This document shows, one piece after another, positions 2,895 through 7,359 of a DNA stretch of 35,229 nt (positions are counted from its first letter, which is position 1; every line of letters starts with the position of its first letter). Origin of the DNA: Singulisphaera sp. (GTDB lineage: Bacteria; Planctomycetota; Planctomycetia; Isosphaerales; Isosphaeraceae); the NCBI GenBank assembly GCA_027451445.1, contig DAIDJG010000223.1, forward strand, positions 1 to 35,229, given 5' to 3'. The position numbers were made by a program, and so were the translations under genes. The notes below the pieces were generated by a model. The model was not told where the DNA came from. It ran no database searches and saw only the letters and a list, made by a program, of their open reading frames with translations.

Positions 2895-3194
2895 ATGAGT
2901 GAACCCGCGATCGTACACGACGTTGATGCTCCGACCTTGATGGATGTCGATGGCCCGATCCCAGCGTTTCCCCCGCGTCAGCGCGACGCGGACGGGTCCG
3001 TGATGCCCATTACCGAGGAAGAAGCCCACTCGCGCGCCGACGCGTTTCGCCGTGCCATGGCCGCGATTCCGCCCGACGAGAGCGACGAAGGGAACTGGTG
3101 GTTGGAAGGCATGAAGGACATTGACGCAATGAGGGGGAGCGGCCGAAAGCTCTTCGAGGAGTTCTACGCGCATGGCGCGAGTCGTGGTGCTTGA
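2895..3194 (+). CDS. Putative antitoxin of a VapBC-like pair
   Basis: A 99-residue acidic protein. The start at 2895 is chosen for the GAGGAG-like site immediately upstream; an earlier ATG at 2817 has none. I do not recognise a DNA-binding fold. The C-terminal half (residues about 36-95) is helical and charged, as expected of a toxin-wrapping tail. The assignment rests on context: its last 23 bases overlap the start of the PIN-domain gene, the usual arrangement of toxin-antitoxin operons where the antitoxin comes first. It would bind and block the downstream RNase. It could also be an unrelated small protein co-translated with the toxin. Confidence 0.55.
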   Translation: MSEPAIVHDVDAPTLMDVDGPIPAFPPRQRDADGSVMPITEEEAHSRADAFRRAMAAIPPDESDEGNWWLEGMKDIDAMRGSGRKLFEEFYAHGASRGA

Positions 3195-3630
3195 TACGAG
3201 TCCCCTCTGGTTGGCGTCGCTTGCGCCGGGCAAGCCGAAGGCCGACGATTGCCGCAACTGGATCGCAGGACTGCTCGGGAAAGGTCACGTGGTCGCGTTG
3301 CCGGAGATCGCTGATTATGAAGTCCGTCGTGAGTTACTTCTTCGCGGCGCGACCGCGAGTCTGCGACGGCTCAACTCCCATAGATCCACGCTCGACTTTC
3401 AGCCCATCGACACCCCAATCATGCTCAAGGCGGCGGAGCTTTGGGCGCTCCTTCGGCGAACTGGAGGGCCGACGGCGGGAGCGCAGGAACTTGACGGCGA
3501 TGCGATTCTCGCAGCGACCACTCTCATGGCATGGAGCACTGGCGACACCGTGACGCTCGCGTCGAGCAACGTTTCGCATCTCATGCGGTTCCCAGGTGTC
3601 GACGCTCGTGACTGGACCACGATCACCTGA
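3172..3630 (+). CDS. PIN-domain ribonuclease toxin (VapC-like)
   Basis: A 152-residue protein, normal length for VapC. The Mg2+-binding acidic residues of PIN domains are in place: D8 in VVLDTSPL, E50 in IADYEVRRE, and D108/D110 in LDGDAILAAT. The C-terminal strand SSNVSHLMRFPGVDARDW matches the usual VapC ending. VapC toxins are site-specific endoribonucleases, often cutting tRNA or rRNA, and are held inactive by the antitoxin. The start overlaps the upstream gene by 23 bases, implying translational coupling. The active site looks intact, so the toxin is probably functional. The RNA target cannot be told from sequence. Confidence 0.88.
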   Translation: MARVVVLDTSPLWLASLAPGKPKADDCRNWIAGLLGKGHVVALPEIADYEVRRELLLRGATASLRRLNSHRSTLDFQPIDTPIMLKAAELWALLRRTGGPTAGAQELDGDAILAATTLMAWSTGDTVTLASSNVSHLMRFPGVDARDWTTIT

Positions 3631-3633
3631 GCG

Positions 3634-3656
3634 GAATCCACACGGTGTGGGATTCT
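3634..3656. terminator. Hairpin after the VapC-like gene
   Basis: GAATCCACAC and GTGTGGGATTC pair with one bulged G, three bases beyond the toxin stop codon. It is well placed for an operon end but has no T-run. Confidence 0.35.
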
Positions 3657-4285
3657 GGCCACGCCCGGAATCTCCTGGCGTTTGGCGCGATTCCGCGGAC
3701 TCTGCGGCTCGGCCGCCTCAATCGTCCCGACGCGATCGAGCAAAGCCGTCGTTGCAATCGGCCATCATTTCGTGTCAGGCCGGTGTCGCTTTTTGTCTCT
3801 CGCTTCGACGGTGAGGACCGTAAACCGGCCACTCGAAAGGGTGCGGGAAGTGCCAAGAGCGATACCATGGGCCTTGACTCACCCGTAGCGCGAGTCACGA
3901 TCGGGAAGGAATTCCGGAGAAGGTTCGTGCTTGCACAAACCGACGGACTGGACATTGCTGGCTCCTCGACCCGATTCTGCGAAATCGAGCCGCTCGAAAA
4001 ACTAGGTCCTTGAATCTTCCTTCGGGCGCCAAGAAGAGACTGGACAAAATTTTAGAAAAATCGACGGAGTGGGCTTGCCTTCGTGTTGACCGATACGTAT
4101 CATGTATACACTAGAAGTGAACCGTATACGTCTCGACGCGCCCCTAAGTGTCAGTAAGATCGGCAGGCCGATGAACGGTCCAACCACCATCAACCATGTT
4201 CTCAATCCGCGCGGATCCTCGCGCGCTGAACACCTCCCGGCCAGCGTCTGTATCTTGGGAAAAGGAAGCGAAACAACTTCGCGAA
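3657..4285. other. Gene-free stretch left of the low-GC element
   Basis: No open frame here has a convincing start, family resemblance or codon pattern. Base composition falls toward the right, especially after about 4010. This may be chromosomal spacer or decayed sequence next to the integration site. Confidence 0.4.
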
Positions 4286-4305
4286 AAAACTCCGAAACTT
4301 CGAAA
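4286..4305 (+). repeat. Candidate attL (left copy of direct repeat)
   Basis: AAAACTCCGAAACT, two differing bases, then GAAA. The same 20-bp pattern is at 7335-7354 just upstream of the integrase gene. Tyrosine integrases typically leave such short direct repeats at the element ends. No tRNA gene is seen as target. Confidence 0.45.
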
Positions 4306-4341
4306 TCGTTGACAGTTCCCGACTTGCGTATTTCGGAGTTT
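4287..4341. promoter_or_regulatory. 11-bp inverted repeat at the left element end
   Basis: AAACTCCGAAA (4287-4297) and its exact reverse complement TTTCGGAGTTT (4331-4341) are 33 bases apart. The same 11-mer recurs at 7336-7346. Next to the second arm, TTTCTCCAAAACTC (4339-4352) recurs at 7328-7341. These look like integrase binding sites shared by the two ends. Confidence 0.5.
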
Positions 4342-4370
4342 CTCCAAAACTCTTGACTGCTTGCACTAGA

Positions 4371-4413
4371 TGACTGGTATTAAAGAGTTTACGGCAAATC
4401 TCATTACCAGTCA
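4371..4413. repeat. 9-bp inverted repeat
   Basis: TGACTGGTA (4371-4379) and TACCAGTCA (4405-4413) are exact reverse complements with a 25-base spacer. It sits between the left candidate att site and the iteron-like repeats, a place where recombinase or replication proteins would bind. Confidence 0.4.
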
Positions 4414-4426
4414 AGGGCTTGGAAGA

Positions 4427-4519
4427 AGGTAATGTCGCCATTCGGGGGTTCATAATAGAGATTCTAGGCAATCTGGGAAAGCGGATTGCTGGCATTCTAG
4501 GTAATGCTACCGAGGTAAT
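4427..4519 (+). repeat. Iteron-like AGGyAAT repeats
   Basis: The heptamer AGGyAAT occurs at 4427, 4466, 4499 and 4513. Two copies lie in a longer 12-base repeat ATTCTAGGyAAT (4461-4472 and 4494-4505) spaced 33 bases, close to three helical turns. Such spacing suggests bound protein on one face of the DNA, for example Rep iterons or integrase arm sites. No gene is supported between 4306 and 4703. Confidence 0.45.
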
Positions 4520-4650
4520 AGCGAACAATCGATCACTAGGATTCGGGGGGATAACCCACTTAATTGTGCATTCGATTGGCATGCGTCTAGCGGGATGGCG
4601 GTTGAAAGGTTTCTTGCCACCCCTACTGTGTGCAAATTGGGTTCAAAAAT

Positions 4651-4904
4651 GCGTGCGGTGGCGACACCGCTCACGCGGATCCGAAGGTGGATTTGTTGAA
4701 CCCCTATGGTGGCTTGCTGGCAAGCCGAGTGTCAGCCGATGGGAGAACCGTCCTTGAACCGTGCGTGAATCGCTCACGCGAGCGTATACCGCTTGCTAGC
4801 GGTGTTCTCGCGGATGGGGGAACGGGATGCGTTGTGTCGTTGCCATCGTGAGTTGTTTCGGCTGACGCCGAAACAAGATTGGCACGCTGGGGGGCGTGCC
4901 AATC
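4651..4904. repeat. Array of perfect hairpins at the Rep 3' end (origin-like)
   Basis: Successive hairpins: 4655-4670 (6-bp stem), 4711-4726 (7 bp), 4763-4779 (6 bp), 4788-4803 (6 bp), 4853-4876 (10-bp perfect stem, loop TGAC) and, directly abutting, 4877-4904 (11-bp perfect stem, 6-base loop). Three of the hairpins are followed by related tails (TCACGCGGAT 4671-4680, TCAGCCGAT 4732-4740, TCTCGCGGAT 4806-4815), so the array seems to contain diverged repeat units. It overlaps the last 66 codons of the Rep-like frame. A rolling-circle double- or single-strand origin is the simplest idea; a structured RNA is an alternative. Confidence 0.55.
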
Positions 4905-5687
4905 AGTTGCCTTTTTCAAAGATTCTTTATTCTTAGATTCGTATGCATCCATGCACTCTTGATGGCATGCTTGTGGTGTGGGAAACCATTCAGATATTAG
5001 TGATTTCCATATTTGCTTTTCCGTCGTGTTGAGCCAGAAACCTGCTGTCGAGAAGGTGCTGTCGATGCCGGATTCTTTGCGTCGTTTTAAGAGAAAAGAT
5101 TGCTTACTTTTTGTCGTAATGTTGTCTTTATTATTGGACGACACAAACTTACATTGATAGAACAGCGTCTTGATGATTTCGTCACCAACCATCGGAACGC
5201 AAGTCGAAGACTTACCCCCTGCGTATTTCCAAGAATCATAGATTGCTTGCCTTAACACACTTCGTGGAGCATCTGAATAACATGCGAAATCATAGTGACA
5301 ATTCAACTTGTCGGTAGGGTGTGCAATCGCGTGAATCCCGACAAAGTATCCATGCCGTTTCCTCATGCTGTTTATCAGTCGAAGGAATCTTCGCTTGACT
5401 TTCTTATGTTCTTCTGGACTCGCATCGATCGCCAGTTTGAGGCAACCACGATAAATCGTGAAATCGTTTGATAGCGATTGAAGGTGCCTTGCGACACAGT
5501 TTGCATGTTTGTATGCCCATTTATTGCGGCATTCTCTACTGCATCGTGGATTCCTGCATCGTGGCAGGTGTTCCAAGCCAAGATACTCTTGTGTCTTTTT
5601 GAGATTACTGACATTTCGACATTTGGCACTAGGGCGTTTTTGGATAAAGTCATGTTGACTTTTAACGGAATTTTCGCTAATATACAT
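4704..5687 (-). CDS. Rep-like protein of the integrated element (possible HUH initiator)
   Basis: A 327-residue protein, AT-rich in codon use compared with the chromosome. The N-terminal part has clustered cysteines (C44, C49, C53, C64), a possible zinc-binding knuckle. It is followed by a basic helix and NCHYDFACYSD (129-139), which sits like the H-x-H motif of rolling-circle initiators but has only the first His. YDSWKYAGG (150-158) and TLFYQCKF (174-181) follow, reminiscent of Rep motif regions. I infer a DNA nicking or initiation role from this and from the element context; the family is not firmly recognised. Residues 262-327 are encoded by the hairpin array and look low in complexity, with a repeated LPSAxTxLAS-like phrase, so the functional protein may end near 260. 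No clear ribosome-binding site precedes the ATG. Confidence 0.5.
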   Translation of the reverse strand: MYISENSVKSQHDFIQKRPSAKCRNVSNLKKTQEYLGLEHLPRCRNPRCSRECRNKWAYKHANCVARHLQSLSNDFTIYRGCLKLAIDASPEEHKKVKRRFLRLINSMRKRHGYFVGIHAIAHPTDKLNCHYDFACYSDAPRSVLRQAIYDSWKYAGGKSSTCVPMVGDEIIKTLFYQCKFVSSNNKDNITTKSKQSFLLKRRKESGIDSTFSTAGFWLNTTEKQIWKSLISEWFPTPQACHQECMDAYESKNKESLKKATDWHAPQRANLVSASAETTHDGNDTTHPVPPSARTPLASGIRSRERFTHGSRTVLPSADTRLASKPP

Positions 5688-5728: not shown

Positions 5729-5757
5729 TGCCGTGATGGCTTCCAACCGTCACGGCA
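5729..5757. promoter_or_regulatory. 11-bp hairpin between the Rep-like and Xis-like genes
   Basis: TGCCGTGATGG pairs with CCGTCACGGCA (one G-U pair) around a 7-base loop. On the plus strand it is followed by TGTTTCATTAT. It lies about 40 bases before the Rep-like start, so it could be a terminator for the Xis-like gene, an attenuator of the Rep-like gene or a plus-strand terminator. Confidence 0.45.
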
Positions 5758-5787
5758 TGTTTCATTATATCGTTATATTAGATTTTG

Positions 5788-6033
5788 TTATCGCCATTTT
5801 TCCGAGACGGGATTCCACTCTCTCCGTCTTCCCGTCATAGTTCCTTTGATTTTACACGCTTTCACTTTTTCTTGAAACTCTTCCCAGTCAGTCTTCAAAA
5901 CACGAATCGCACGCCGAAAACGGCATGCTGGCAAAGTGCCTTGATCGATGGCTCGATAGACGGATTTGACGGAAAAACCAGAGAGTGCGGCAATCTCTTT
6001 TGGCGTGTAGAACTTTGATTGAAGGTATTGCAT
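5788..6033 (-). CDS. Excisionase-like helix-turn-helix protein
   Basis: An 81-residue basic protein. Residues about 7-45 (FYTPKEIAALSGFSVKSVY) form a MerR/excisionase-type winged helix-turn-helix of the HTH_17 kind, in which a tyrosine-rich start and SVKSVYRAI recognition helix are usual. Such proteins bend att DNA to favour excision, or act as repressors. It is encoded about 100 bases downstream of the integrase gene on the same strand, separated by a strong hairpin. This is the usual place for a recombination directionality factor. The C-terminal tail (46-81) is basic and without recognised domain. Confidence 0.75.
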   Translation of the reverse strand: MQYLQSKFYTPKEIAALSGFSVKSVYRAIDQGTLPACRFRRAIRVLKTDWEEFQEKVKACKIKGTMTGRRREWNPVSEKWR

Positions 6034-6078
6034 GTTTTTTGCTTCTAAAAAGTAAAACGATAAGTGAATGTAAACAAC

Positions 6079-6119
6079 GAGACACGGGGCTAGGGCTTGC
6101 CTAGTTTACCCCGTGTCTC
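6079..6119 (-). terminator. Strong terminator-like hairpin after the integrase gene
   Basis: An 11-bp perfect outer stem (GAGACACGGGG, 6079-6089, with 6109-6119) encloses a second 5-bp stem (CTAGG, 6090-6094, with 6100-6104) and a 4-base bulge. It begins 18 bases beyond the integrase stop. On the minus strand it is followed by GTTGTTT, fitting a rho-independent terminator of the integrase gene. Confidence 0.65.
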
Positions 6120-6137
6120 AATTATCTTCTAGTCCTA

Positions 6138-7193
6138 TCAGAACAGCAACGAAGCAACGGCGGCTTTCTTGGCTTCATTCCGCACGCGAGCGTAGACTTG
6201 TGTCGTATTCAAGTCTTTTTGTCCGAGGCATTCACAGATAGTCAGAATGGGCTTCTCTGCGTCCACCAAAGCCGTTGCGAATGTGTGTCGGAGTTGGTGC
6301 GGATGAATCCCGAACTTGCTTTTCAGTTGGTAATAAGCAGTCGCATAGGTGATGTTCGGAAAGATGCGTCCCGTCGCATGGAGCGTCTTTCGGCGTGCGA
6401 GAACGGCTTTTCCAATCGGGGCGACTTCCGCCGTATATCCCGTTTTCGTTTTCGTCGGGATGGCAGTTGACGATGGCGGGACTTGGATGCCACCATCAGC
6501 CGTCAACCACTCCCATTGCATGTTGACGGCGGCATTGGCACGCATCCCCGTTGCAAGCATGACCTTGAACACATCGGCAAAATCAATAGTGAGTTTGCCT
6601 TCCTTGACGGCGGAATCAACCCGTTCCAAGAAGTCTTTCCGTTCTCCATCGGTGAGATACTTGATGTTCTCCGTCGGCGGGAATCGCTTGTTGTAGTCTC
6701 TCAACACGGGCGAAACTGGATTCTTGTCGATGATGCCGCGTTCGAGGGCTTGCTTGAACAGTGCCGACAAATAAATCAAGTCAGACTTGATTGTCTGTCC
6801 CTTCACCTTGCCATCACGACTGTTCGCCCATGCTCTCACGGTGTCCGTCGTGATGGCGGACACCGAACAGTCTTTCCCGATGAATTCGCGGAACCATCGG
6901 ATGATGCGTTCCATTCGCACGGCGGATCCAGCGGCTTTCATCTTCGGGTAGTCCACGCCGAACCAGTCCATGAATTCCATGATGGATTCGGGGTTTGCTG
7001 CTCGCGTCGTTGAACCCGACTCTTTTGATTCAAAAACGCCAGTGTGCTTGCTGGCGAGAACCAGAACATCAGGGGGCTTGTTCGCGTTGGATTCCCCAGG
7101 AAGTGCCTTGCGGAGCGTGACTCTGGTATCCTTGCCGTTTCGTTTCGTTTTGAGTTTCCAATTGCCAGATTGCTTGTCAATGTAAACCGTCAT
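6138..7193 (-). CDS. Tyrosine recombinase (phage-type integrase)
   Basis: A 351-residue site-specific recombinase. The N-terminal third (about 1-65) resembles an arm-binding region, the SAM-like core-binding domain covers about 70-165, and the catalytic domain about 175-345. Catalytic residues are visible: R218 in TGMRANA, H299 and R302 in HPHQLRH, and the nucleophile Y334 in TTQVYAR. The second His position is Gln (LGQKD, Q325), a substitution tolerated in some members. It would catalyse integration and excision through a 3'-phosphotyrosine intermediate. AAGGA about 10 bases upstream supports the ATG. The gene is nearest the right candidate att site, as expected, and is lower in GC than the chromosome. 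Confidence 0.92.
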   Translation of the reverse strand: MTVYIDKQSGNWKLKTKRNGKDTRVTLRKALPGESNANKPPDVLVLASKHTGVFESKESGSTTRAANPESIMEFMDWFGVDYPKMKAAGSAVRMERIIRWFREFIGKDCSVSAITTDTVRAWANSRDGKVKGQTIKSDLIYLSALFKQALERGIIDKNPVSPVLRDYNKRFPPTENIKYLTDGERKDFLERVDSAVKEGKLTIDFADVFKVMLATGMRANAAVNMQWEWLTADGGIQVPPSSTAIPTKTKTGYTAEVAPIGKAVLARRKTLHATGRIFPNITYATAYYQLKSKFGIHPHQLRHTFATALVDAEKPILTICECLGQKDLNTTQVYARVRNEAKKAAVASLLF

Positions 7194-7297: not shown

Positions 7298-7359
7298 GAA
7301 ACCATTATCTCAATGGTATCTCTATGGTTTCTCCAAAACTCCGAAACTCTGAAACCATT
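7298..7359. promoter_or_regulatory. Right element end: inverted GAAACCAT repeats and candidate attR
   Basis: GAAACCAT (7298-7305) and ATGGTTTC (7324-7331) are exact inverted repeats, and GAAACCATT recurs at 7351-7359. The 20-bp direct repeat shared with the left end is at 7335-7354. The cluster lies about 105-165 bases upstream of the integrase start, so it likely combines integrase binding sites, crossover site and integrase promoter region. Confidence 0.5.

Follow-up and report, generated by a model that had tools for sequence, protein, structure and literature searches.

A hairpin array at the 3' end of a HUH-type rep gene in a small Singulisphaera integrative element: a candidate rep terminator and single-strand origin

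What could be the function of a dense array of hairpins that overlaps the 3' end of a gene for a replication initiator? This question is raised by positions 4651-4904 of the window, that is, of the whole analysed stretch of 35,229 nucleotides, which is one contig of the 10.9-Mb genome of a Singulisphaera sp. Our answer is a tentative one, held with somewhat more doubt than confidence: the array would be a non-coding cis region of a small integrative rolling-circle element, serving as the terminator of rep and as a probable lagging-strand origin.

Results

The array is carried by a 3-kb element with an integrase and a HUH Rep

The array lies in an element of ~3.0 kb between two 15-bp direct repeats, with the following features.

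4338-4352, + strand: left direct repeat (att), GTTTCTCCAAAACTC, with a 15-bp exact copy at 7327-7341
4704-5687, - strand: HUH Rep, 327 aa, core to about residue 239, array corresponding to residues 262-327
5788-6033, - strand: HTH_17 excisionase/regulator-like protein (Pfam, E = 1.1e-10; PHROG excisionase/regulator, 3.6e-8)
6138-7193, - strand: tyrosine integrase (Pfam, E = 1.5e-14; phrog_1, 2.6e-48)
7327-7341, + strand: right direct repeat (att), the 15-bp exact copy of 4338-4352

Read along the - strand, the order is integrase, HTH gene, Rep gene, array (4904-4651), spacer, and the direct repeat at 4338. The integrase is of an ordinary phage type. Flanking direct repeats together with a tyrosine integrase, the hallmark of an integrative element, are found in the window and in two related loci, L024 and L025. 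Both of these, in genome G036, are evidently insertions, 3.2-3.3 kb in size, and in both Rep is followed by a non-coding tail. The repeat of L024 measures 27 bp and lies at the rpsI 3' end, and that of L025 measures 19 bp and lies at the 3' terminus of a glnA-like gene; the gene names were read from the translations. No empty integration site was found for the window copy, and its left flank was unmatched in ten relatives. A related Rep locus is also present in Tautonia sociabilis, of the same family, and searches of viral contigs, phages, and plasmids returned no relatives of the window Rep or integrase. We infer that the window carries a ~3.0-kb integrative rolling-circle element that is excised and replicates as a rolling circle. 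Elsewhere in the window, a strong inverted repeat (GAGACACGGGG...CCCCGTGTCTC, 6083-6122) is located between the integrase and HTH genes, and a group II intron occupies 240-1041, which comprises a fragment of a reverse transcriptase/maturase and, at 966-1041, a match to RF00029.

The protein encoded next to the array is a microvirus/G2P-type HUH initiator Rep. Among 15 homologues, H131, Y177, and K180 are the sole invariant columns, and the catalytic YxxK motif, formed by Y177 and K180, is present in 15/15 sequences. The HUH motif is incomplete in the window Rep, where it reads H131-Y-D133 with the first His invariant in all 15, whereas many relatives have H-U-H, in versions such as HYHF, HLHL, HSHY, and HFHY. 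A Pfam search with the window Rep gave no match, and several relatives match PF23343 (REP_ORF2-G2P) at E values from 2.4e-6 to 1e-3, which fall just short of the curated cut-off. When the AlphaFold model (residues ~64-227) was compared with the PDB, the best match was SIRV1 ORF119 (Z 8.3), which we take to be a HUH Rep; the parvovirus NS1 nuclease and pMV158 RepB scored Z 6.2 and 5.8, in a range (Z <8) that can mean merely a common arrangement. Foldseek with the same model found nothing in the PDB at E <0.001, and in the BFVD viral library the model matches microvirus initiators (E = 1e-7). The label "Rep-like," which a sequence-only reading of this DNA had used, is thus borne out by the invariant H131/Y177/K180, the sub-cut-off PF23343 matches, and the likeness of the model to microvirus initiators and pMV158 RepB.

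This Rep is comparable to the initiators of Microviridae and Inoviridae (PF23343 REP_ORF2-G2P) in being of the HUH/YxxK single-tyrosine type. However, it differs from them in having H-Y-D instead of H-U-H and no Pfam match of its own, and the element that carries it is integrated, ~3 kb long, and without a capsid gene.

The array consists of six perfect stems

The stems of the array are as follows, without a strand unless one is given.

4639-4703: outer stem GGGTTCAAAAA / TTGTTGAACCC around the first two small hairpins (from folds)
4651-4676, - strand: leftmost hairpin GCGTGagCGGTGtcgcCACCGCACGC, then ATTTTTG on the - strand (from the terminator scan and folds)
4655-4670: perfect 6-bp stem, part of the leftmost hairpin
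4711-4726: perfect 6-bp hairpin GGCTTG-CTGG-CAAGCC
4763-4779: perfect 6-bp hairpin GCGTGA-ATCGC-TCACGC
4777-4812: nested hairpin CGCGAG...ACCGCT-TGCT-AGCGGT...CTCGCG, outer stem read from the sequence
4788-4803: inner perfect 6-bp hairpin of the nested hairpin
4853-4876: perfect 10-bp hairpin TTGTTTCGGC-TGAC-GCCGAAACAA
4877-4904: perfect 11-bp hairpin, abutting the 10-bp hairpin with zero gap, terminator-like on the + strand

Within 4651-4904, there are six perfect stems that are 6 bp or longer, 45 bp in total, in agreement with the earlier claims of at least six hairpins in 250 bases and of perfect 10- and 11-bp hairpins that abut (4853-4876 and 4877-4904, no gap). In 500 dinucleotide shuffles, stems of this minimum length contained 2.6 ± 3.9 paired bases, with a maximum of 19, against the 45 observed. 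The array is also the top-scoring 270-bp stretch of the 35-kb window for hairpins, and its minimum free energy is far below that of shuffles both as RNA (z = -5.7 on the + strand and -5.4 on the - strand) and as ssDNA (z = -6.9 and -6.5, respectively). No strand asymmetry beyond base composition was seen in the RNA or ssDNA folds; both strands fold about equally well because the stems are nearly all Watson-Crick. On the + strand, the 11-bp hairpin is accompanied by a T run at ~4913-4917, which is offset from the end of the stem. Similar tails behind some hairpins had been taken to suggest repeated units. This is not established: only one pair of tails was found (4715-4748 versus ~4792-4824; score 14 compared with 10.9 ± 1.7 in shuffles, P = 0.08), and the case for repeat units in the array is weak.

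The Rep frame seems to cross the array by accident

The array had been said to encode the last 66 residues of Rep, which is exactly right for 4707-4904 and wrong for 4651-4703, beyond the stop codon. The companion claim that these residues look unlike folded protein was confirmed, as residues 264-327 have a pLDDT <50 and are predicted to be disordered by AlphaFold, and no codon bias was seen. The coding score of the array part of the frame is -0.10 nats/codon versus +0.16 in the 198 nt before it, to be read with caution as the training set includes the Rep body itself, and the GC content changes from 0.42 in the preceding 198 nt to 0.61. Moreover, 36% of shuffles of the array stretch likewise keep the frame open. 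Given the missing coding bias, the predicted disorder, and this proportion of open shuffles, the Rep frame seems to cross the array by accident, continuing because a stop codon happens to be absent there. Three features favor a non-coding role of the array: its codons show no bias, the residues they encode are predicted to be disordered, and the stretch folds extremely well. These results point away from amino-acid conservation with synonymous bias through the array.

On the - strand, the terminator scan places the hairpin GCGTGAGCGGTGTCGCCACCGCACGC, followed by ATTTTTG, ~28 nt past the rep stop. Judged from its sequence, this leftmost hairpin is likely a good intrinsic terminator of rep. The earlier interpretation, sound on the Rep-like protein, supported on a non-coding role, and not significant on the repeat units, had overlooked both this terminator and a conserved hairpin before rep.

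The array is particular to the window element

The array is single-copy in its own genome, which sets aside REP/BIME-type chromosomal palindromes. No convincing homologue was found in 45 genomes of the family, in plasmids, or in phages (an order-level search for relatives gave the family set again), and a search of 397 genomes of the class yielded short matches without a convincing homologue; the five matches inspected (E <0.01 or weaker) span 26-50 bp, and the sequence surrounding them is without an array. Pattern scans of viral contigs for the 10-bp and 11-bp hairpins returned zero hits, and five unrelated single hairpins. An Rfam structured RNA was likewise rejected, as 4300-5000 gave only chance matches at a relaxed threshold, the best with E = 0.7.

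An array comparable to that of the window is absent after Rep from 15/15 related Rep loci, so elements of this kind do not require one. A positional hairpin profile anchored on the Rep end has no clear common peak, and hairpin enrichment after Rep was rejected as a family trait (Fisher P = 0.81 for the 15 related loci without the window). The array is a single, unconserved case, particular to the window element. In relatives, the post-Rep slot holds different sequence, including extra coding modules. In L024, an exact 36-bp direct repeat (5295-5330 and 5619-5654) brackets a module of ~290 bp, which forms an in-frame fusion with the Rep 3' end, and L025 has a similar module. The sequence TTACCGACACTCC is common to the post-Rep regions of L024 and L025 and lies inside the exact 36-bp repeat in one of them.

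Two further observations were made among the relatives. In L027, where Rep is at 5786-6841 (- strand), an HK97-type capsid gene (3032-4468, - strand; Pfam, E = 2e-21) lies downstream of the HTH-Rep pair, a possible phage satellite; as proof of satellite life it was set aside, being one distant locus only. At its contig end, L026 has a long inverted repeat that is almost perfect (positions 1-85); a truncated integrase follows it, and the repeat may be an assembly artefact.

A conserved hairpin precedes rep

Two features were noted in the leader of rep.

5655-5683, + strand: candidate antisense promoter TTGACT-N17-TAATAT, not above chance (P = 0.19)
5730-5756, + strand: leader hairpin conserved in the family and resembling a terminator on the antisense strand, a candidate antisense-RNA terminator

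With the start of the Rep core as anchor, the hairpin profile of the seven close loci (the window, L013, L024, L025, L026, L027, and L037) shows a single dominant peak at about -85, which in the window is the hairpin at 5730-5756. The antisense strand gives the stronger signal, with a mean log-percentile of -3.96 (z = -6.6) compared with -2.82 (z = -5.4) for the sense strand. The leader hairpin ranks in the top 2% of its own locus at the same offset in six of the seven and is shifted in the seventh. In all of these loci except L024, whose stem is perfect, the antisense-strand stem (window, L013, L025, L026, L027, and L037) is Watson-Crick with one G.U pair, which separates a base of 6-9 bp from a short apical stem and corresponds to an A.C mismatch on the sense strand. 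The 9-nt tails contain 5.1 T on the antisense strand versus 3.3 T on the sense strand (P = 0.027, partly post hoc because the pattern was seen by eye before testing). Two distant loci, L051 and L054, also have antisense hairpins in the same region, followed by six- and four-T runs. Antisense-promoter candidates are present in the window, L026, and L027, above chance in L027 only, and none of the other four loci has one above chance. L024 and L025 have no HTH gene between integrase and rep.

In pMV158, the 48-nt RNAII overlaps the copG-repB intergenic region (PMC4485353). The leader of the window, rather than the array, resembles this copG/RNAII/repB arrangement in having a small regulator gene, an antisense terminator-like hairpin, and rep. 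However, the window Rep is of the microvirus/G2P type, the element has an integrase, and the antisense transcript is a candidate only. By this analogy, an antisense RNA from the leader would likely control rep.

Discussion

In rolling-circle replicons, the conversion of ssDNA takes place at a site dedicated to it, the ssi or sso (PMC5714925). In the mechanism we propose, the leftmost hairpin would end rep transcription, the excised circle would replicate by rolling circle, and the remaining hairpins would fold on the displaced single strand, where they would most likely act in cis as the single-strand (lagging-strand) origin or a comparable site. A replication role at the DNA level would be the most economical reading because a second-strand start site is needed and dense Watson-Crick hairpins stand beside a HUH rep. 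Like the sso/ssi of rolling-circle plasmids and of phiX174, from which the suggested single-strand-origin role is drawn by analogy, the array is non-coding, offers several ssDNA hairpins, and lies beside a HUH rep; the multi-hairpin, non-coding character of a single-strand origin is present. In contrast to them, it overlaps an open rep frame, is not kept in relatives, and is without a known sso motif, none having been recognised in the array. Its absence in relatives counts against a single-strand-origin role. The motif AAGCGG, presumably a primosome motif, occurs on the - strand at 4789; it was rejected, as it is at chance frequency and a literature search gave no support. The intergenic region of filamentous phage f1 also has several adjacent hairpins near its rep gene; they lie before rep, whereas the window array lies after it, in an element with no coat genes.

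The sites that HUH Reps nick are exposed within hairpin-like structures (PMC5714925), and the array might instead hold the double-strand (nicking) origin, with Rep binding the hairpins and nicking one loop; TTACCGACACTCC, in the post-Rep region of two relatives, could be such a nick or bind site. We regard this as rather unlikely, as TTACCGACACTCC is absent from the window element, the array comprises several different hairpins instead of one bind/nick pair, and the sole structure kept across relatives is before rep. The nicking origin could also lie at that leader hairpin.

It is unlikely, too, that the array is without function, a product of element-specific palindrome accretion in the variable post-Rep slot. 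That it occurs in one locus only, while other elements fill the slot differently, including with coding modules, is what such accretion would leave; however, the 45 bp in its six perfect stems, where shuffles never exceeded 19, speak for more than chance, and perfect 10- and 11-bp stems would erode under neutral drift. A broader reading would make the array a structured cis element of a new type, as ssDNA or antisense RNA, in little-known ~3-kb Isosphaeraceae integrative elements. These elements would combine a microvirus-type HUH Rep with a tyrosine integrase and with copy control by antisense RNA, and would possibly be phage satellites. This reading seems doubtful to us.

We give still less weight to a structured + strand RNA of ~4632-4917, which would run antisense to the rep 3' end. 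Its fold would be closed at the base by GCAA/TTGC (4632/4911) and end near the T5 run, the RNA z is -5.7, and the last hairpin is terminator-like on the + strand; however, the scan found no + strand promoter before 4640 at its threshold, the best Rfam match has an E of only 0.7, and both strands fold about equally well relative to shuffles. Least probable is a packaging signal by which a small-phage satellite would mark its DNA, for although the Rep is of the microvirus/G2P type and HTH, Rep, and HK97-type capsid genes occur close together in one distantly related locus, this 3-kb element is without a structural gene, no helper phage is known, and relatives of its Rep and integrase were not found in viral contigs, phages, or plasmids.

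The array itself, as a likely terminator and probable lagging-strand origin, is a striking yet single and unconserved case, and its interest is moderate. More is learned from the group of ~3-kb integrative elements with a Rep and from their conserved antisense leader. If our reading is true, planctomycetes would harbor minimal 3-kb integrative rolling-circle elements with a phage-type initiator, and the array and the antisense leader would provide two compact, directly testable cis regions.
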